Below, piece after piece: positions 851 through 40,160 of a DNA stretch of 40,160 bases. Every line of letters starts with the position of its first letter. Within the stretch, counting starts at the first letter, position 1. Both the position numbers and the translations under genes were made by a program. This DNA is from Desulfovibrio sp. OttesenSCG-928-A18 (GTDB lineage: Bacteria > Desulfobacterota > Desulfovibrionia > Desulfovibrionales > Desulfovibrionaceae), in contig JAJDJN010000003.1 in the NCBI GenBank assembly GCA_030267245.1, forward strand, positions 1 to 40,160. The letters run 5' to 3'. The notes under the pieces are model-generated. The model did no database searches and was not told where the DNA came from. It was given only the letters and a program-made list of their open reading frames with translations.

Positions 851-1883
851 AACGTATTTCTCTCTCTCCATGGCAGATCAGGCCGAGCTTTTGGATACTG
901 CATCATCTCACTCCGGTCGCCCGGCCCATCTTCTTGAAAAAGACGTATGGGTTGTATGGACATTGTCCTGCCTTTTTTCTTCCGCCTTGGCGGATAGACT
1001 CACCTTCAAGGGGGGCACGTCACTTTCCAAGGCTTACAATGTCATTGACCGTTTTTCAGAAGATATTGACCTTACATGTGATATTCGTCGCCTACTGCCC
1101 GACATGGCCACGGAGCCGGAAGGTATTCCGCCTACTTCTAGCCAAGCCGCAAAATGGACGAAAGCTGTACGTTCCCGTTTGCCTCAATGGATTGAAGACA
1201 GCGTTATTCCAGTTATTCAGACGGCTTTGGCCGATAGCGACATGGTGGCCGCTCTCGATATAACCGGCAAAGATAGTGACAGTATTCTTGTAAAATATCC
1301 GCCGTTACGACAAGGAACAGGGTATGTCGCTCCGCATATCCGGTTGGAATTCGGAGCAAGGTCTACCGGAGAACCCTGCGAGGTTTTGCCGGTCGTTTGC
1401 GATCTTGCGCCGCTGATGCCTGAAATTATGTTTCCCGAGGCGCGGCCACGGGTCATGAAGATGGAGCGCACTTTTTGGGAAAAGGCTACCGCCATCCATG
1501 TTTTTTGCCGACAGGCCAAGATGCGCGGCAACCGTTTTGCCAGGCACTGGCACGATCTTTTGCGTCTGGCTGCAACCGAACGTATCCAGACCTCACTTGC
1601 GGATAAATCTTGGTTGGAACAAGTTGTTCGGCATAAAACAATGTTTTTTCAGGAAAAAGATCAATCCGGAGTACCCATTGACTACCAGGAATGCTTGACT
1701 GGACATTTATGCCTTGTGCCTGATGGGGTAGCGTGTGAAACTCTACGCGAAGACTATAACAGCATGATTCAGGATGGCATTTTACTGGCGCAGGCTCTAG
1801 AGTTTGACGTTGTTCTGGAGCAATGTACCCGCCTACAGACAATGATTAATTCTGACAACACCAATAGTGAGATTTTGCCGTGA
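843..1883 (+). CDS. AbiEii/AbiGii-family nucleotidyltransferase toxin
   Basis: This 346-aa protein has the hallmark motifs of the AbiEii group of DNA polymerase beta-like nucleotidyltransferases. KGGTS (residues 56-60) is the GS-type motif, and SEDIDL (E73, D74, D76) supplies the metal-binding acidic residues. MERTFWEKATAIH further on matches the conserved Lys/helical motif. AbiEii toxins of known function transfer nucleotides to tRNA or other targets and cause growth arrest or abortive infection. All catalytic motifs look intact. The start ATG lies inside the end of the antitoxin gene, and the stop overlaps the next start as GTGA. Two partners are normal for AbiE; the third co-transcribed gene here is not. 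Confidence 0.87.
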   Translation: MLETYFSLSMADQAELLDTASSHSGRPAHLLEKDVWVVWTLSCLFSSALADRLTFKGGTSLSKAYNVIDRFSEDIDLTCDIRRLLPDMATEPEGIPPTSSQAAKWTKAVRSRLPQWIEDSVIPVIQTALADSDMVAALDITGKDSDSILVKYPPLRQGTGYVAPHIRLEFGARSTGEPCEVLPVVCDLAPLMPEIMFPEARPRVMKMERTFWEKATAIHVFCRQAKMRGNRFARHWHDLLRLAATERIQTSLADKSWLEQVVRHKTMFFQEKDQSGVPIDYQECLTGHLCLVPDGVACETLREDYNSMIQDGILLAQALEFDVVLEQCTRLQTMINSDNTNSEILP

Positions 1884-3976
1884 GCTTGACTACAAACTTA
1901 GCAGGTAGATTGCGGAACACTCCCCTCCCAAGAACACATGCGCTGTTTCCGTTGTTTGAAGCGGTCGTAAACTCTATTCATGCGTGTGAAGATGGCACTG
2001 GAAAGTCTATTGAAGGTAGCTCAATAGCTGTCCATATTTTACGCGACTCCAAAGAGGCTTTTCAAGCCAACCTGCTTAATGATGAACCTCGAAAAACAGG
2101 GGTAGAGGCTTTGCCCGAAATAAAGGGCTTCAGAATTGTAGACAACGGAGTTGGCTTTAATGATGAAAATATGGAATCATTCAAGACTCTTGACAGCGAT
2201 TACAAAGAAGAAAAAGGCTGCCGGGGAGTAGGCAGGCTCCTATGGCTTAAAGCCTTTAAAACAGTTGAAGTATTGAGTCGCTATACAGAATATGATGGCA
2301 ACATACGGCAACGAAATTTTTCTTTTAGCAAAGAGGGGGTCATGCCTCCCTCCCCAGAGGGAAAATCAACTACGTCAGTCAATACACAAACAACGGTTAC
2401 TATGTCAGATTTTTACCCTGCATATAGAAAGTATGCGCCAAAAACAATTCATAAAATTTCCGAACTATTGCTTGAACATTGTCTTTGGTACTTTATCCGT
2501 GAAGGCGGAAGACCGCATATAAGGCTTATTGATGGTGATGAGAGCGTTGAGCTGGACGCTTTGTTTGATAGCTATACGCTTGGTAATGTTGAGTATGACA
2601 ATGCAGATATTGGTAGCTATAGATTTGAATTGACATATATAAAGGCTCGAAATCCTAGTTTAAGTAATCATGAGATTTGTTATTGCGCTGCAAGTCGCCT
2701 TGTGAAAAAGGTTAATATAACAAATAAAATTCCTGGATTATATAAACGCATCACAGATAGTCATGGCGCATTCGCTTATATGTGTTTTGTTACATCATCC
2801 TTTTTAGATGAACGTGTTCGTTCTGAACGAACAGGGTTTGATATAGAAGATAGTAGACAGGAGAATGAACATAGCCAATCTTCATTATTCAATACTGATG
2901 ACGGTGCTCTCGACGATGATGTGGTATTTGACGACATCGACAAAGTTGTTTTGGAGAAAATTTCCGAAAGAATTGGAGATACGCTTGAAGCAAGTCAGCA
3001 AACAGGGAGACAACGGGTAGAGCAGTTTGTTGATAATAATGCACCAAAATATAAATCGATAATGCGTCACTATCCGAATCTGTCTGTGGACCCAGATACA
3101 ACAGACAGGGAATTAGACATCCTATTGTATAAAAGACTTTCCGATCTTGAAGTAAAAGTAATATCAAAAGGACACGAACTGTCTATTCCTAAAGAAGGTG
3201 AGCCTTTTGAAGATTATAGCAAAAGATTACATGACTACCTCTCTATGGTCAGCGATATAAAAATGGCAGACCTAGCCAACTATGTATCTCATAGAAAAGT
3301 GGTATTAGATTTTTTTGAAGAGGTTATCCAACAGCATAGGGATGGAAAATATTCACAAGAGAATATTGTTCACAGGCTTATAATGCCAATGCAGGTTGAG
3401 TCGGATGAAATTAAACTTGAGAGTGCAAATCTATGGCTTATTGATGAGCGTCTAGCGTTTCATAATTATTTAGCATCCGACAAGACTTTAAAGTCGATGC
3501 CCATAACAGATTCTGAAGAAACTGTCAGGCCAGATATAGTTTCTCTCGGTGTGTACGACAATCCATTGTTAGTCAATAATGGCAAACAGCTTCCTTTGGC
3601 TAGTATCACCGTTGTCGAAATAAAACGACCTATGCGCAATGATTTTTCTGAAGGCGAGGCTGATAACCCCATCGAGCAAGCTTTGGCATATGTGAAAAAA
3701 ATCCGTGCAGGTGAAACAAAAACAAAAGATGGGCGGATAATTCCCCAGTCTGAATCTATCCCTGCTTTCTGCTATATTCTTGCAGACTTGACTCCTACCA
3801 TGGAAACTCGTGCGCAAAACGCAGGGTTGACGGTTACAAGCGATCATATGGGATATTTTGGTTATAACCCTGCTCGCAATGCCTATATTGAAGTTATTGG
3901 CTTCGACAGATTAATCACTGCGGCCAAGGAAAGAAACAAAGCATTTTTTGATAGGCTTGGACTGCCTTCAAATTAA
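1880..3976 (+). CDS. GHKL ATPase with PD-(D/E)XK-like C-terminal domain, AbiE-linked
   Basis: This 698-aa protein starts at a GTG overlapping the AbiEii stop (GTGA), so it is probably translationally coupled. The N-terminus shows a GHKL (Hsp90/MutL/histidine-kinase) ATP-binding fold: the N-box with E27 and N31 (FEAVVNSIHAC), the G1 box D88-N89-G90 (IVDNGVGFND), and a glycine-rich GCRGVGRLLWLKAF near residues 113-126. No phosphoacceptor His box is evident, so it is not a typical sensor kinase. The C-terminal 150 residues contain D552, then VVEIKRP (E580, K582), the D-x(n)-E-x-K spacing of PD-(D/E)XK nucleases. The ATP-binding motifs are clear and the nuclease call is tentative. Codon use is AT-richer than in the two genes upstream, especially from 2400 to 3500. 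A defence role is inferred from the neighbours. Confidence 0.75.
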   Translation: MSLTTNLAGRLRNTPLPRTHALFPLFEAVVNSIHACEDGTGKSIEGSSIAVHILRDSKEAFQANLLNDEPRKTGVEALPEIKGFRIVDNGVGFNDENMESFKTLDSDYKEEKGCRGVGRLLWLKAFKTVEVLSRYTEYDGNIRQRNFSFSKEGVMPPSPEGKSTTSVNTQTTVTMSDFYPAYRKYAPKTIHKISELLLEHCLWYFIREGGRPHIRLIDGDESVELDALFDSYTLGNVEYDNADIGSYRFELTYIKARNPSLSNHEICYCAASRLVKKVNITNKIPGLYKRITDSHGAFAYMCFVTSSFLDERVRSERTGFDIEDSRQENEHSQSSLFNTDDGALDDDVVFDDIDKVVLEKISERIGDTLEASQQTGRQRVEQFVDNNAPKYKSIMRHYPNLSVDPDTTDRELDILLYKRLSDLEVKVISKGHELSIPKEGEPFEDYSKRLHDYLSMVSDIKMADLANYVSHRKVVLDFFEEVIQQHRDGKYSQENIVHRLIMPMQVESDEIKLESANLWLIDERLAFHNYLASDKTLKSMPITDSEETVRPDIVSLGVYDNPLLVNNGKQLPLASITVVEIKRPMRNDFSEGEADNPIEQALAYVKKIRAGETKTKDGRIIPQSESIPAFCYILADLTPTMETRAQNAGLTVTSDHMGYFGYNPARNAYIEVIGFDRLITAAKERNKAFFDRLGLPSN

Positions 3977-33612: not shown

Positions 33613-34122
33613 TCATTCTCCTTTGGGGTTGAACAAAAAAAGAGGCTCGACCCGCTGGAGGCTATCCAAGGGAACGAGCCCGAAATACCGGCTGTCGAAA
33701 CTGCCTTCATGATCGGCCAGCACCAGCGCCATGCCGGAGGGAATGACGCCGGACGCGAGGACGGAAGGCATGGGTCGCCCCTGACTGTCCATGGAGCGGA
33801 CGGCCAAGGAATCAGCCTCTATGTAGTCGCCGGGCAGACCTGCCAGGCGTTTGAGTAGCGGACGCAAGCCATTGGGGCAGGAACCGGCCTGAAGATAGCC
33901 ACGTTCTTTCGCCAAATCGGCAAACTCGCCTTGTAGGCAGAAGCTGACGAAATCTCCCTTGGTCACATCCTGACCAGGGGCGATCCTGTAGACTCCCTTG
34001 GGCAAGGACGGTGTGGGATTGAAACGCAGACCGGAGCCATGCGCCAGAATACCGGCCAGCAGCAGCCACAGAACGGCAAAGAGCCAGCATCGCACCCGGC
34101 TATTCCATAAAATAGCGTTCAC
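33613..34122 (-). CDS. traF: TraF conjugative signal peptidase-like protease
   Basis: This 169-aa protein has one N-terminal membrane segment (WLFAVLWLLLAGILAHGSG). The S26 peptidase motifs of the TraF family follow: FNPTPSLPKGVY with catalytic Ser39 and KRLAGLPGD with Lys91. In RP4 TraF processes and cyclises the TrbC pilin. No pilin or mating-pair gene is in this window, so its partner must be elsewhere or lost. The start overlaps the traG stop region by 23 bp. Order and overlap (traG then traF) match RP4. Confidence 0.9.
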   Translation of the reverse strand: MNAILWNSRVRCWLFAVLWLLLAGILAHGSGLRFNPTPSLPKGVYRIAPGQDVTKGDFVSFCLQGEFADLAKERGYLQAGSCPNGLRPLLKRLAGLPGDYIEADSLAVRSMDSQGRPMPSVLASGVIPSGMALVLADHEGSFDSRYFGLVPLDSLQRVEPLFLFNPKGE

Positions 34123-35056
34123 TGGAGTTCTCCTGTGTGGGCGCAGGCGCGGCGTCCGCAGTTTTTGGGGCGGCGGAAGAGGACGGCCTGGCCGAGTACC
34201 AGGACGCCGGGCGCGGCTGATACAGTGAATCGCTGATGCCGCTGGGATAAACGGCGTTCAGGCCGGGCACCGGAATTTTGGCGCGGGCCGAGAAGACGGG
34301 ATCGAAGAAATAGAGAATCTGCCGACCGTAGATGGGCGATTGCCCGGCTGTGAAAACCAGCATGTCGCCCGGCTTGAGCACGCGCCCCTGGCTGTCCTTT
34401 TCCGGGCCGGGCAACCTCATGCACTCGTCAGGCGTGAGCAGGGGCCGGGCCGTTTCCGTCACGTTGACCGAGGCGTTTTTCATGTGCCCGGTACGTGAAC
34501 CGGAAAGGGACACTTTTTCTTCCACGACAGTGGTTTTCCCCGTCATGTCGGAAAGCGTCTTGGCCGTTTCAATTGTGTTCGGCGCGTAGGCAATCCGCAC
34601 ATGGCAGTTGGCCATGAGCGCGTTATCCTTGCCGTACACCGCATTAAGCTGAGTAATGTCCTGAACGATAATGTAAACTTTGCCGCCGTAGCCCGCGATG
34701 TAGGCCAAGGCTTTTTCCATAATCGGGAGCTTGCCCAAGCTGGTGAACTCGTCCAGCAGCAGTAAAAGCCTGTGCTTGTAACCCGCCTTGCTGGAACCGT
34801 CCGCAAACTCCATTTTGGAGCAGATCCGGCGCACGATCATATCCACCATGAGCCGGAGCAAAGGCCGCATACGGTCAATGTCAGCCGGGGAAATCACCAG
34901 ATAGAGATTCACCGGCTTTTCGTGGTTCATCAGGTCATGGATGCGGAAATCACAATGCGCGGTATTCAGCGCCACCACCGGATCGCGGTATAGCGCCAGA
35001 TTGGTCAAGGCTGTGGAAACGACCCCGGAGGCCTCATTTTCCGCCTTGTTCGTCAA
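34100..35056 (-). pseudogene. traG: TraG/VirD4 coupling protein, C-terminal half
   Basis: About 318 residues match the C-terminal half of RP4 TraG: NKAENEASGVVSTALTNLAL, LYLVISPADIDRMRP, the Walker B LLLLLDEFTSLGKLP, and VQDITQLNAVYGKDNALMAN. A proline-rich tail follows. TraG proteins are normally about 630 residues with two membrane helices and a Walker A motif at the front; both are missing. Homology begins abruptly at about 35056 (a TTG codon), and the frame only extends to a stop at 35081-35083. The protein could not pump DNA alone. The break mirrors that in traI. Confidence 0.82.
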
Positions 35057-35141
35057 GCTTTTATATCTAGCTGAAAAATATTAGAAAAATAAAAGCAGAG
35101 AGGTTTTGTACCAGCAATCATACCAGCAGCTTTTGAGGGCG

Positions 35142-35354
35142 CTATGAGACTTGCCGGGACAACTTTGGTCTTTCTATGGTAGGCTTTTGCGCAGTTTGCT
35201 TTTTCTGAAGGCGCGAATATGCACTTCCTGCCCTGTCCGCCGGGGTAAAGAAACTTCTCTGCGGCTTTCGACCACTCAACGCATCAAGAAGAGCGCCAAC
35301 ATTTCTGCGGGCGCTCTGTTGAATATTATTTGCAGAGACGTTCAGCCGCCACAA
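35142..35354 (-). CDS. Small hypothetical protein
   Basis: This product of about 70 aa is basic and rich in Gln/Arg/Ser (VSANNIQQSARRNVGALLDA, then LSGRKPQRSFF). It starts at a TTG behind AAGGTGG. It overlaps the preceding small ORF by 29 bp. I do not recognise the family. Chained overlap with two other small ORFs is the main support; it might equally be a chance frame. Confidence 0.35.
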   Translation of the reverse strand: MWRLNVSANNIQQSARRNVGALLDALSGRKPQRSFFTPADRAGSAYSRLQKKQTAQKPTIERPKLSRQVS

Positions 35355-35529
35355 GGACGGCGACCACCTTTTCCAATGACAGCGCGGCGGCGGAGAGAAG
35401 TTTCAATTCTGGCGTCACATCCCCTTTGTTTGCATGTATTCTGCTTTCGCAAAGCTCAAAAGCCAGTGCAACTGTTCTTATCGCCTGTTCTTCAAACTCC
35501 GCCGAACAAACAGTGGTTTGTTTTCTCAT
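35326..35529 (-). CDS. Small helical hypothetical protein
   Basis: This product of about 67 aa, MRKQTTVCSAEFEEQAIRTV then a helical tail (ELKLLSAAALSLEKVVAVLV), looks protein-like with amphipathic helices. The ATG at 35529 has GGAG 5 bp upstream and overlaps the stop of the ORF above as ATGA, which argues for a genuine operon. A longer frame to 35589 is possible but lacks an RBS. No family is recognised. Confidence 0.55.
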   Translation of the reverse strand: MRKQTTVCSAEFEEQAIRTVALAFELCESRIHANKGDVTPELKLLSAAALSLEKVVAVLVAAERLCK

Positions 35530-35750
35530 AATAACTCCGCTGGTAAAGGCAGCCGCAAGCGGTGAACATGCTCCCAGAACAAAAGCCACGCCTCCTCATA
35601 AAGTGGCCTGTAACACGCCGCAAGAGAGGAACAGCCAATCTGTTCCTCAAAATTGAGCAACGCACAATGGCATCTCAGACATGCACCAGCGGCATGCAAT
35701 GTTGAACGCCTTGCTGTGCGCAGCAGCTTGGACGGTATTTTGCTACACAA
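35526..35750 (-). CDS. Small cysteine-rich hypothetical protein
   Basis: This ORF of up to 74 codons contains ACLRCHCALLNFEEQIGCSS and then YEEAWLLFWEHVHRLRLPLP. The four Cys (CxxCxC plus one) could bind metal. Its stop overlaps the next start as ATGA. The start is uncertain: only TTG codons are available (35750 or one nearer the CLRCHC motif). It may be a remnant of a longer gene. I do not recognise it. Confidence 0.4.
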   Translation of the reverse strand: MCSKIPSKLLRTARRSTLHAAGACLRCHCALLNFEEQIGCSSLAACYRPLYEEAWLLFWEHVHRLRLPLPAELL

Positions 35751-35787
35751 TCAGTTACGTTTAGGGTTCTAGGGGGTGTTCCGCTAT

Positions 35788-36696
35788 CTATGCTAACGGT
35801 TTGAGGGGAATGAAAATTTCTGAAAGTAGTTCTTCCGGGGGCGTATTTGTCGGGTCATTATAATAGGCTTCAAATCCTACGCTGTCTCCCGGCTCCCTGC
35901 CGCTTTGTGGCAGCCATTCGCCAAATAGTGAGCGGTAAGCCGGATGCAGCAGGCTGTACGGGCCTTTGATCAGCACGCAGGCGTATTCACCGCCGTTGCC
36001 TATATGTTTGGTAAGCAGTTCGGTAGTTTGTAACAGCTTGGCGAGCGCGGGCGTGTTCTCATCAACGCCTTCGGGGAGAGTAATGCAGACATCCATGCGG
36101 CACTTTTCAACAGGAGTCGAGTCGGGGTCGTCATAAGAAACAGCGTATGCCGGGGAGTTTTGTGCAATAAGGCCCGCAGGCCCCAACAGGCCACACAAGC
36201 GCCCCCAAGCGGGACCGCAAGCATCATAAGGGCCGGTGTGGCGTAATGCGGCAACCAAAACCGGCTTGCATACTTTCACTTTCACATCCACTGGAAAAAC
36301 CTCCGGGTTAGTATGGTAAAAAGGGTATTGCGCAACATCCGCCTTCATCGAGAACGCATGGGAACCGCCATTTTTGCGATATTGCGATGGAGAGACGCCA
36401 AAAGCGGAACGAAAAGCGCGAGTAAAGGCTTCCGGGCTTTCATAGCCAGCATCCAAGGCAATAGCGGTAATGGAGTTCCGCGAGTAAGACACATCTTGCG
36501 CTGCCTTTTGCAACGCCAACCTGCGAATGTAAGCCGCCACACTTTCGCCAACCAGACTTTTGAATATCCGGTGAAAATGGAAGGGGGAAAAGTGAGCGAT
36601 GGCCGCCAATTCATCAAGTGTTTGCAAAGCGTCAAGGTGCTTTTCAATGTGCAGTAATACCCGCTGTATTCTTCTTGAGTATGTGTTGTTGCTCAT
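35788..36696 (-). CDS. AraC-type regulator with GyrI-like effector domain
   Basis: This 302-aa protein has an N-terminal pair of helix-turn-helix motifs (LDELAAIAHFSPFHFHRIFK and AIALDAGYESPEAFTRAFRS) followed by FGVSPSQYRK. A GyrI-like/SOUL effector-binding domain occupies about 135-302 (VKVCKPVLVAALRHTGPYDA, YACVLIKGPYSLL, GDSVGFEAYYND, EIFIPLKP). Such regulators (MarA/Rob/SbmC-like) sense drug-like small molecules and control efflux or stress genes. The transcript diverges from the HEAT-like gene across a 245-bp gap. The target is unknown. Confidence 0.92.
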   Translation of the reverse strand: MSNNTYSRRIQRVLLHIEKHLDALQTLDELAAIAHFSPFHFHRIFKSLVGESVAAYIRRLALQKAAQDVSYSRNSITAIALDAGYESPEAFTRAFRSAFGVSPSQYRKNGGSHAFSMKADVAQYPFYHTNPEVFPVDVKVKVCKPVLVAALRHTGPYDACGPAWGRLCGLLGPAGLIAQNSPAYAVSYDDPDSTPVEKCRMDVCITLPEGVDENTPALAKLLQTTELLTKHIGNGGEYACVLIKGPYSLLHPAYRSLFGEWLPQSGREPGDSVGFEAYYNDPTNTPPEELLSEIFIPLKPLA

Positions 36697-36941
36697 GTTT
36701 CCCTTTTACAGCTTGTCGTTTGAAGTTTCCTGACTTTTTTTGCTAAATTTGAACGATGGCGTTCAGGTTTGTGGCGTACCGTGTATGAACTGACAAGTGA
36801 TGATACCGGCACAGCCAGTACAGCGCTTGAACATTTGCCGCACGCAACCTGTCGATACCATTCTGGCTTGACCCGACAAGAAATGTTGCTTACGGCATCT
36901 TTCGGGAAAATGGCAATTGCTTACAAGGTTATAGGGGCTAA

Positions 36942-37466
36942 ATGAACAATCATCCGCTAATATCGTCACTCCATGGTGGCAAGCGTTGGTCAACGGATCG
37001 GGCGCAGTTGGTTGCGGAGACGGTTCTGCACGATCCCGGTCTGTTTGAGGTTTTGTTCAACGGACTGACGATTGACGAACCACTGGCCCGCATGCGTGCC
37101 GCTTATGCCGTTTCCAAAGTGGCGTCCGAACGCCCGGATTTGTTGCAGCCATATAAGGAACAATTCCTTGACCGCCTGCTCGATCCGGACAACAGCCACC
37201 TTGCTCGTGCTTGCATGCTTCAGGCGTTGCGTACCTTGACTCTCGACAAAGAAGGTATCGAGTTGCTGGTTGATACACTCAAAGATTTCTTGTTCAGTGA
37301 AAGCAGTATTGTGAAGACCTTTTCCCTCCAATTATTGGCTGATTTTGCCGCTGAAGACGAAGGCCTGCGCAACGATGTGCTGCCGCTGCTTTGGGCTGCC
37401 AGAGAAAGGGGTACTCCAGCCATGCGCGCCAGGGCGAGGAAGCTGCTCAAACGATATCATTTGTGA
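36942..37466 (+). CDS. HEAT-repeat-like protein
   Basis: This 174-aa, all-helical protein has repeating units such as PLARMRAAYAVSKVASERPD, LARACMLQALRTLTLDKEG and IVKTFSLQLLADFAAEDEGL. The spacing of about 40 residues is that of HEAT/Armadillo repeats. Such proteins are scaffolds or DNA/RNA-binding (AlkD-like) modules; no enzyme motif is seen. AGGGG lies 5 bp before the ATG. It is followed 93 bp later by a P-loop kinase gene on the same strand, possibly in one operon. Confidence 0.72.
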   Translation: MNNHPLISSLHGGKRWSTDRAQLVAETVLHDPGLFEVLFNGLTIDEPLARMRAAYAVSKVASERPDLLQPYKEQFLDRLLDPDNSHLARACMLQALRTLTLDKEGIELLVDTLKDFLFSESSIVKTFSLQLLADFAAEDEGLRNDVLPLLWAARERGTPAMRARARKLLKRYHL

Positions 37467-37559
37467 TTGTGCCGTATATCGATTCCACTCTGAGGTCGTT
37501 GGTTACCATATCCGGCGATCTGTTTTCAGATGATGCCTATCAAATAAAAAGGGGTGTCC

Positions 37560-38069
37560 ATGCTCATAATTTTTAGCGGCTTACCCGGCACAGGAAAAAC
37601 CGCCATTGCGTCCATTGCAGCTCGTGAACTTGGTGCGGTATACCTGCGCATTGACAGCCTGGAGATGGGCATCATTCGTTCCGGGCTCGTGGCTGATCAA
37701 TGGAATCTCGGCCCTGCCGGATACTGCGCGGCCTATGCCGTGGCCCTGGACAATCTCAAGAACGGTATGACAGTGGTCGCGGATTCGGTGAATCCCCTAA
37801 AAATTACGCGAGACGCTTGGCGAGATGTGGCTATCCAGGCGGCCGCGCCGTACCTGGAAATCGAGGTGGTCTGTTCAGACGAAGCGGAACACAAAAGACG
37901 CGTTGAATCCCGAAAAAGTGATGTGGAGGGCCTTTGCCTGCCAAACTGGCAGCAAGTTATGGACAGGGAATACGAGCCGTGGAACCGGGAACGGTTGGTG
38001 TTGGATACAGCTGGACTCTCCGTAACCGAGTCGGCGCGCAGCGTTGTGGCAGCACGCCCGCCAGCATGA
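37560..38069 (+). CDS. AAA/P-loop kinase (zeta-toxin/gluconate-kinase-like)
   Basis: This protein of about 169 aa starts with LIIFSGLPGTGKTAIASIAA, a perfect Walker A. It then has VYLRIDSLEMGIIR, GMTVVADSVNPLKITRDAWR and EVVCSDEAEHKRRVESRKSD, the pattern of small-molecule kinases with an arginine-rich lid. DVEGLCLPNWQQVMDREYEP occurs in uncharacterised AAA_33 family members. It probably phosphorylates a small metabolite or antibiotic; the target is unknown. The start ATG 37560 has AAGGGG 5 bp upstream. The stop overlaps a 41-codon ORF as ATGA. Confidence 0.85.
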   Translation: MLIIFSGLPGTGKTAIASIAARELGAVYLRIDSLEMGIIRSGLVADQWNLGPAGYCAAYAVALDNLKNGMTVVADSVNPLKITRDAWRDVAIQAAAPYLEIEVVCSDEAEHKRRVESRKSDVEGLCLPNWQQVMDREYEPWNRERLVLDTAGLSVTESARSVVAARPPA

Positions 38070-38191
38070 TACTCTCCAAAGGTCCAAATAGTCAGAACAT
38101 ATTTTTCTCCACTACCGCGAAAGACTTTGTTTACGCCCTGGCAAACTCGGTTCTCGCAGTTGGTGTTTCTGCTCTGGCTGTGTCTGTGTAA
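38066..38191 (+). CDS. Possible small hydrophobic peptide coupled to the kinase
   Basis: This ORF of 41 codons starts MILSKGPNSQNIFFSTTAKD and ends with a hydrophobic segment (YALANSVLAVGVSALAVSV). Its ATG overlaps the kinase stop (ATGA), allowing re-initiation. There is no separate RBS and I recognise no family, so it may be chance. The remaining gap to 38350 shows nothing gene-like. Confidence 0.22.
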   Translation: MILSKGPNSQNIFFSTTAKDFVYALANSVLAVGVSALAVSV

Positions 38192-38350
38192 AGCCCCTTC
38201 ATCAGTGCAGACCTAAATCAGACACTTCCGCATGCTTGAGGACAAGTTCCTCTGGGGTCAAACACCCTCATTGTGTGGGCACTCACTTGAACCGAATATC
38301 GCAAGATGTTCTGGGGCAACGGGGAGTGCGTTGTTTCATTTATTTTTGGA

Positions 38351-39865
38351 TTATTCCACAGCGTCTTCCTCTCCACTGGAAGAATTAATAAGACTGGAGT
38401 GCTCATCCCAATGATGCGAAGAACTTAGGCACTCTAAAATTTTGTCTGGTACTTGCCCGGCGGTCATCTGCTCAACATCCTTCACGTCCTGAAAGTTAGT
38501 TCTTCGCAACATCAATTCCCAAAGCATTTTGACCCGCTCAGGATCGTACGTTGTATAACCAATAGGTATTCTGGCGTCCCTTAGGCCATATGCAGGAGCG
38601 ATTCGGGCATGATACTGCACCATAGCCCAGCAAGGGGAACCTGGAACAATTAGGATCTCCATTTCATCTAGAGGGGGTGCATTTTGAAATGATAAAAGGT
38701 TATCTGCGATTCCACCATATCGTTGACGGCATTCATGTGCTTCTTGTTTAGAACTTGCTTTGGGAAAAACCAATGACAGTGAACTCTGCTTTTTAGTAAG
38801 TAATTCAGCCACCTGCTCGTAGAAGGCTCTCGAGTACGCGCTTGCACCCCAATATGATGCCGAAGAGGGAAGCCACAGTATGGGCTGAATGCTTGGCGTT
38901 CTGCTCAGCCAATTGATAAAGCCTCCTTTATTCTGTGGCAAATATATAGAGCCAATGATTCCAGTTGTTTTTGGCGAACCATAGCCTGTTCTCCGTTTGT
39001 CACGTTCCCGGAGGTATTTTTCAATGTCAAAAGTGCCTCCAGCGCCTTCAAAATTTAGTAAGACATTATCCTGGACTCTGAGACAAAAATCTTGCACGGA
39101 AAGAGAGTCATTTTGGGTGGTTTGATTATTGAATATGGTGTTGATGTATCTAAGAATTCCGCTATTCACGACAAGATCCAGGTTGTCACCTGAAAAACCG
39201 GACAAAGAAGAAGATATTTTTAAATGTCCATCGGATTGCCATTCTGAGTGGATATCCACAGACACTGGGAAAGAAACTAGCTTCTCATAAAAGCAGCTGT
39301 TAATTCTATAGAGCCGCGTTTTGGATTTTTTAATATTTTCTATGGTCGTGCAGAGCTTGAATCTGTTAAAGTCTTCTTGAAATATAGATTCTGCACTGAA
39401 CTCATTGTATAATGTCTCTTCAGAAACTAATTCATAAAATCCAGCCAGACTTGGATTTGATGCACGAGGTTGGATATGCTCTGAAGCTAAATCAATATAA
39501 AATGATGCTGTATATCTTTCAATGCCTTCCAGTTGTATTGTTCCGTCACTTTGTTTTAATTCGTTAAGTCCACTTGTTACCTCAATATCACCATTTTCAT
39601 TCAAAAATGCCAGATTTGTGCTGATAATTTGTTGCAGGAGTTCTTCTCTTTCATTGTCATTAATGCCAAGAAAAGACTGCAATTCATACGGACTTATTCT
39701 ATTTAATGTATCAAGTAGCTGGATTGATATCTCTAAAAAAGCTGGAAGAGGATTTCTTGCAGTAACATCAAAGTCAGCAGTATATTTTTTTGCCGGTATC
39801 AAAAAAGAATAGCTTGCAATCAGTCGCTTTTTAACTTGCTTAATAGCGTTTGCTGACTCAGACAT
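38351..39865 (-). CDS. Unrecognised 504-aa protein paired with an SF1 helicase
   Basis: I do not recognise this protein. Residues 1-110 look helical and may include a winged-helix (ISPYELQSFLGINDNEREEL, then LLQQIISTNLAFLNENGDIE). The middle is mixed (KLVSFPVSVDIHSEWQSDGH, LNFEGAGGTFDIEKYLRERD). The C-terminal third reads like an alpha/beta domain (IIGSIYLPQNKGGFINWLSR, then EILIVPGSPCWAMVQYHARI). No HKD, Walker or nuclease motif is evident. It starts 3 bp after the helicase stop, so the two are one operon. Its AT-rich codon use differs from the transfer and cargo genes. A defence role is a guess based on the helicase partner. Confidence 0.75.
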   Translation of the reverse strand: MSESANAIKQVKKRLIASYSFLIPAKKYTADFDVTARNPLPAFLEISIQLLDTLNRISPYELQSFLGINDNEREELLQQIISTNLAFLNENGDIEVTSGLNELKQSDGTIQLEGIERYTASFYIDLASEHIQPRASNPSLAGFYELVSEETLYNEFSAESIFQEDFNRFKLCTTIENIKKSKTRLYRINSCFYEKLVSFPVSVDIHSEWQSDGHLKISSSLSGFSGDNLDLVVNSGILRYINTIFNNQTTQNDSLSVQDFCLRVQDNVLLNFEGAGGTFDIEKYLRERDKRRTGYGSPKTTGIIGSIYLPQNKGGFINWLSRTPSIQPILWLPSSASYWGASAYSRAFYEQVAELLTKKQSSLSLVFPKASSKQEAHECRQRYGGIADNLLSFQNAPPLDEMEILIVPGSPCWAMVQYHARIAPAYGLRDARIPIGYTTYDPERVKMLWELMLRRTNFQDVKDVEQMTAGQVPDKILECLSSSHHWDEHSSLINSSSGEEDAVE

Positions 39866-39868
39866 GAT

Positions 39869-40160
39869 TTACTCACTTTTGGGATTGGAAAGAGGAATAA
39901 CTTGATACTCTCCGCTGGCAACCAAAGACTTCTCCTTGATAAACCTAAAGACTCTCCCCAATGGGCTATTCTGAGACGACCACATCTGCGATGCACCCAC
40001 AATAACCAAATGGTTTTTCGCTCTGGAAAGAGCAACATTTATCCGCGCCTGATCATTCATAAATCCAGCTTTTTGCGCCATATTGTGCCGCACCAGACTG
40101 AGAATAATAATTCTGTTTTCGCCGCCTTGGTAGCTATCAATCGTGTCTACTTTTACCATC
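39869..40160 (-). CDS. Upf1-like SF1 helicase, C-terminal end (cut by window edge)
   Basis: The visible 97 codons carry SF1 helicase motif V (TIDSYQGGENRIIILSLVR) and motif VI (GFMNDQARINVALSRAKNHL, then VIVG), the Upf1/AAA_12 pattern. The gene continues beyond 40160, so N-terminal domains are unknown. Such helicases occur in several anti-phage systems with varied partners (nucleases, PLD proteins). It lies 3 bp upstream of the unrecognised 504-aa gene. Confidence 0.88.
   Translation of the reverse strand, partial: MVKVDTIDSYQGGENRIIILSLVRHNMAQKAGFMNDQARINVALSRAKNHLVIVGASQMWSSQNSPLGRVFRFIKEKSLVASGEYQVIPLSNPKSE

Follow-up and report, generated by a model that had tools for sequence, protein, structure and literature searches.

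Whether a fragment of a Upf1-like helicase gene and a large partner gene at the end of a contig from Desulfovibrio sp. OttesenSCG-928-A18 (JAJDJN010000003.1) form a new two-gene defence system, as a sequence-only reading had proposed, is the question raised by this locus; the window referred to throughout is the whole stretch of 40,160 nucleotides that was analysed. The locus is a fresh example of an already named system and no new defence system: sequence comparison indicates that the pair is very probably the mkoA–mkoB operon of Mokosh type I and forms part of the cargo of an integrative mobilizable-type element (∼14.6 kb) that has inserted into traG, a degree of confidence that covers identity and context and excludes the mechanism inferred below. 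The features concerned are as follows, with C13 denoting a second contig of the same genome.

34100 to 35034, minus strand: 3′ part of the interrupted traG, encoding the VirD4-type coupling protein of the host conjugative element (T4SS-DNA_transf, E 5e-66; TraG-D_C, E 1e-30)
35035 to 35051, minus strand: 17-bp direct repeat GAACAAGGCGGAAAATG, putative attachment-site core, at the traG-3′ boundary (other copy at C13:9343-9359)
35788 to 36696, minus strand: AraC/GyrI-like regulator (GyrI-like, E 1e-33; HTH_18, E 1e-23)
36942 to 37466, plus strand: HEAT-repeat-like gene (weak HEAT matches; not Mokosh)
37554 to 38069, plus strand: P-loop kinase-like gene (AAA_33, E 2.9e-9; not Mokosh)
38351 to 39865, minus strand: mkoB of the probable Mokosh type I pair, partner protein of 504 aa
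39869 to 40160 (ORF fragment 39869-40159), minus strand: final 96 codons of mkoA (3′ end), with the AAA_12 part of the SF1 helicase motifs
C13:7939-9264: tyrosine integrase (Phage_integrase, E 1e-19)

The description of the pair given by the sequence-only reading holds: two minus-strand genes occupy positions 38351-40160, separated by 3 bp (39866-39868), and both are AT-richer than their surroundings, with GC contents of 0.404 (504-aa gene) and 0.436 (helicase fragment) vs 0.535 in window positions 1-35034. The helicase is likewise of the SF1 Upf1-like type, the 96-aa fragment matching at E 3.6e-21 the AAA_12 domain that forms their C-terminal core. This fragment is open at position 40160, where the contig ends, and mkoA is therefore cut in the window by an assembly edge.

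Identity is carried by PADLOC models, through which, together with secondary descriptions, Mokosh is defined here. The 504-aa protein matches the MkoB model PDLC03923 (E 9.2e-52; residues 13-457 on model positions 7-438 of 454), and the helicase fragment matches the MkoA model PDLC03921 at its very end (E 3.3e-39; model positions 1511-1601 of 1607). The partner had been called unrecognised because neither Pfam nor NCBIfam gives it a significant name, and as far as Pfam domains go that description stands; the MkoB match overturns the remainder, placing the partner in a known defence family and thereby removing the novelty claimed for the pair. A system distinct from all named ones could draw on this same lack of a significant Pfam or NCBIfam name, and on a predicted structure of the partner too low in confidence for assignment, but the Mokosh models match both proteins strongly and over nearly their whole length, gene order and adjacency fit Mokosh, and distant homologues match the same models, leaving this proposal with next to no probability. 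Four features expected of type I are present (a Upf1-like, COG1112-type SF1 helicase, a Ser/Thr-kinase-like domain, a NERD domain and an adjacent MkoB), and type II, a single fused gene with a C-terminal phospholipase-D (PLD) nuclease, does not describe a locus of two genes in which MkoA stops after the helicase.

What survives of the original proposal is a helicase-based defence locus with conserved pairing. An uncut homologous pair is found in Desulfovibrio sp. ZJ369 (MkoA of 1627 aa and MkoB of 492 aa, 3 bp apart), the two MkoB proteins being 59% identical. Among ∼295 sampled genomes of the class, three encode MkoA (cut-off E<1e-80), and these three are also the ones with a full-length MkoB; the two genes are neighbours in every case, adjacency in the source genome being counted across the contig split. 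MkoB relatives are encoded in 32 records from plasmids and in a single record of a Pseudomonas phage, and none was found in the viral contigs scanned; at all six loci opened, a large gene annotated with an AAA domain or as a nuclease lies directly upstream. Paired homologues are found on plasmids of Pseudomonas, Vibrio, Pantoea and Acinetobacter and in the Pseudomonas phage record, and the PADLOC models match every plasmid protein tested (5/5 MkoB, 2/2 MkoA), which, together with the matches of the pair itself, refutes a new two-gene system.

The remainder of mkoA was located by a model search of the genome on contig C13 (C13:25-4470, minus strand), where it covers MkoA model positions 1-1473 (E 2.7e-291) within an ORF of 1490 codons without stops (C13:1-4470, minus strand) that ends at the contig edge. 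Aligned with the ZJ369 protein, the C13 piece spans residues 11-1499 at 60% identity and the window fragment residues 1532-1623 at 70% identity, so that the helicase gene is recovered save for ∼29 codons left unassembled between the two contigs. A decayed or assembly-chimeric remnant, in which the organism itself would have a truncated helicase gene and lack a functional system, might be read from an in-window helicase ORF of just 96 aa stopping at a contig edge, in a genome bin that is 66% complete and spread over 318 contigs; the 1490 codons on C13 are nevertheless open, share the orientation of the window fragment and are collinear with ZJ369, and the traG halves and matching 17-bp repeats on both contigs are an independent sign of adjacency, making a remnant highly improbable. 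An intact mkoA is accordingly what we infer from two collinear halves, rather than see directly.

These repeats also delimit the carrier. The 5′ half of traG lies on C13 (10054 to 9343) and the 3′ half in the window (35051 to 34100), with GAACAAGGCGGAAAATG at both edges, and a script joining the flanks at one copy of the repeat yielded a single open TraG frame across the junction. The element between the repeats comprises window positions 35035-40160 and C13:1-9359 (L009), in the order integrase, NikA-like protein (E 4e-13), MobA/VirD2-type relaxase (Relaxase, E 3e-29), mkoA, mkoB, P-loop kinase, HEAT-like gene and AraC/GyrI-type regulator. With its own integrase, a relaxase, direct-repeat boundaries and, judged from the ORFs seen inside ∼14.6 kb, no mating-pair (T4SS) genes of its own, the carrier is, on its gene content, an integrative mobilizable-type element; the traG that it occupies belongs to a conjugative element, and the genome is of Desulfovibrionaceae type. 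The uninterrupted site is present in relatives (G026:C112 and G202:C1) and in a second traG of the same genome, on its own contig C112. A congener (G143:C39; L033 3599-10789) carries a 7.2-kb insert at the same traG site, with the same 17-bp repeats and a 79%-identical integrase; its cargo differs, consisting of an inverse autotransporter (surface protein) and a deaminase-like protein, and its insertion is independent of the Mokosh-bearing one. Within the Mokosh-bearing element, the HEAT-like and AAA_33 genes (36942-38069) are duplicated on another contig of the same genome (C38; L002 442-1565), the copies sharing 89% and 91% amino acid identity, respectively.

The sequence-only reading had also placed the pair at the opposite end of an element bearing an AbiE operon. 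The operon itself is confirmed at 254-1883, but the placement at its far end is rejected: at position 40160 the contig itself stops, and the pair lies in a separate nested insertion that starts at 35035. Beside AbiE, a 698-aa gene (1880-3976, plus strand) overlaps the end of AbiEii (843-1883) by 4 bp; it has no Pfam or PADLOC match, motifs resembling those of GHKL ATPases (DNGVGF) and PD-(D/E)XK enzymes (VVEIKRP) were seen by eye, and the AbiE locus may thus include it as a third gene.

MkoA, at ∼1.6 thousand aa, combines in order a NERD domain (PD-(D/E)XK-like; PF08378, E 2.3e-15), a kinase-like domain, a second kinase domain with the motif HGDLKPDN, and a Upf1-like SF1 helicase, with matches to Pkinase (E 3.3e-10), AAA_11 (E 3e-32) and AAA_12; a NERD domain has been reported for Mokosh type I (PMC10952713). 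Across eight MkoA homologues, the second kinase domain keeps its HGDL[KH]P and the helicase its Walker A (GPPGTGKTT), DEA and Q[YF]RM motifs (the last being QYRM here), and (E/D)xDL...ExK is conserved in all those that carry a NERD domain. The first kinase-like region retains HRD without an obvious DFG. A plasmid of Pantoea piersonii (L020 2990-7942) has a stand-alone NERD gene directly upstream of a NERD-less MkoA, a natural split of this architecture.

The role of MkoB is less readily assigned. Residues ∼39-98 follow a helix-helix-helix-strand-strand pattern and bear a weak resemblance to a winged helix-turn-helix, with weak matches of this type (HemN_C, E 0.009; CheF, E 0.04) from relatives or the profile; a PDB profile search with MkoB returned weak matches only, and the AlphaFold2 model, built from a two-row alignment, was left out of fold searches on account of its pLDDT of 36. 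Mokosh type I has been described with a separate PLD-family nuclease gene (PMC11672841), and on that description MkoB could be the effector nuclease, its PLD fold hidden from sequence comparison, with MkoA as sensor and helicase. The type II MkoC proteins of relatives, which end in a canonical HxKxxxxD..GSxN motif, would favour such an assignment, as would the alternation of helices and strands over residues 300-455 of the low-confidence model, a pattern that a PLD-like fold would also give. Against it, the HxKxxxxD motif is absent from 8/8 aligned MkoB proteins, hhalign gave probabilities below 1% for MkoB against both PLD and MkoC C-terminal profiles, and Pfam finds no PLD match in MkoB, so that a nuclease role for MkoB appears unlikely. 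Homologues recognised by the PADLOC model for MkoB lack the motif as well, so its absence does not set this locus apart from the family; it does leave a discrepancy with the Mokosh literature, in that the partner shows no visible PLD catalytic motif and MkoA has a conserved NERD nuclease motif. Rather better placed, though still tentative, is the reading in which MkoB of this subgroup would be a non-PLD subunit (a winged-helix adaptor or sensor) and the NERD domain of MkoA the type I effector, types I and II then using different nucleases on a related helicase.

Degradation of viral transcripts by Mokosh is stated in one source (PMC11291487); in a review from 2026 the mechanism is still given as unknown (PMC12926258). 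For the present subgroup, a scheme can be proposed in which the MkoA helicase would engage phage nucleic acid (RNA or DNA), activation would be gated by ATP hydrolysis and the kinase part of MkoA, and cutting would be performed by the NERD domain, the likelier cutter here because MkoB shows no catalytic motif; MkoB may then act as a substrate-binding or regulatory adaptor, possibly through its winged helix, rather than as a nuclease. Taken jointly, these steps are a conjecture somewhat short of an even chance.

The analysis closes off a mistaken lead to a new defence system. It also supplies another Mokosh type I example, one that has a close homologue in uncut form and whose mobile context is independent. 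Its remaining interest lies in the discrepancy between MkoB and the described PLD nuclease, and in a traG-targeting mobilizable carrier whose cargo varies by insertion, with defence genes in one case and a surface protein and deaminase-like protein in the other.

Set beside known systems, the locus shares with Mokosh type I (PDLC03921 and PDLC03923) both proteins, their order, their near-zero spacing and the NERD, kinase and SF1 helicase architecture of MkoA; there is no real gene difference, mkoA here being divided between two contigs, although no PLD motif of the kind reported for Mokosh can be made out in MkoB proteins of this subgroup. Mokosh type II (mkoC, PDLC03924) has a related SF1 helicase module, its model also matching the window fragment (E 2.8e-13), but is a single gene with a canonical C-terminal PLD motif and no separate MkoB. 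The carrier compares with known integrative mobilizable elements of the traG site, such as Tn6104 and IME_Sco1050_traG, which likewise lie inside the VirD4 coupling-protein gene of a conjugative element and have their own integrase and relaxase; those tabulated in a review (PMC5704250) use serine integrases and reside in Tn5252-type ICEs of Firmicutes, in contrast to the tyrosine integrase and Desulfovibrionaceae-type genome found here. PglW of BREX type 2/Pgl, finally, matches MkoA residues 15-487 over its own residues 17-494 (E 5e-31), a likeness of the NERD and kinase-like N-terminal architecture that stops short of the Upf1-like helicase half and suggests that a NERD and kinase module is common to Mokosh and BREX type 2/Pgl.
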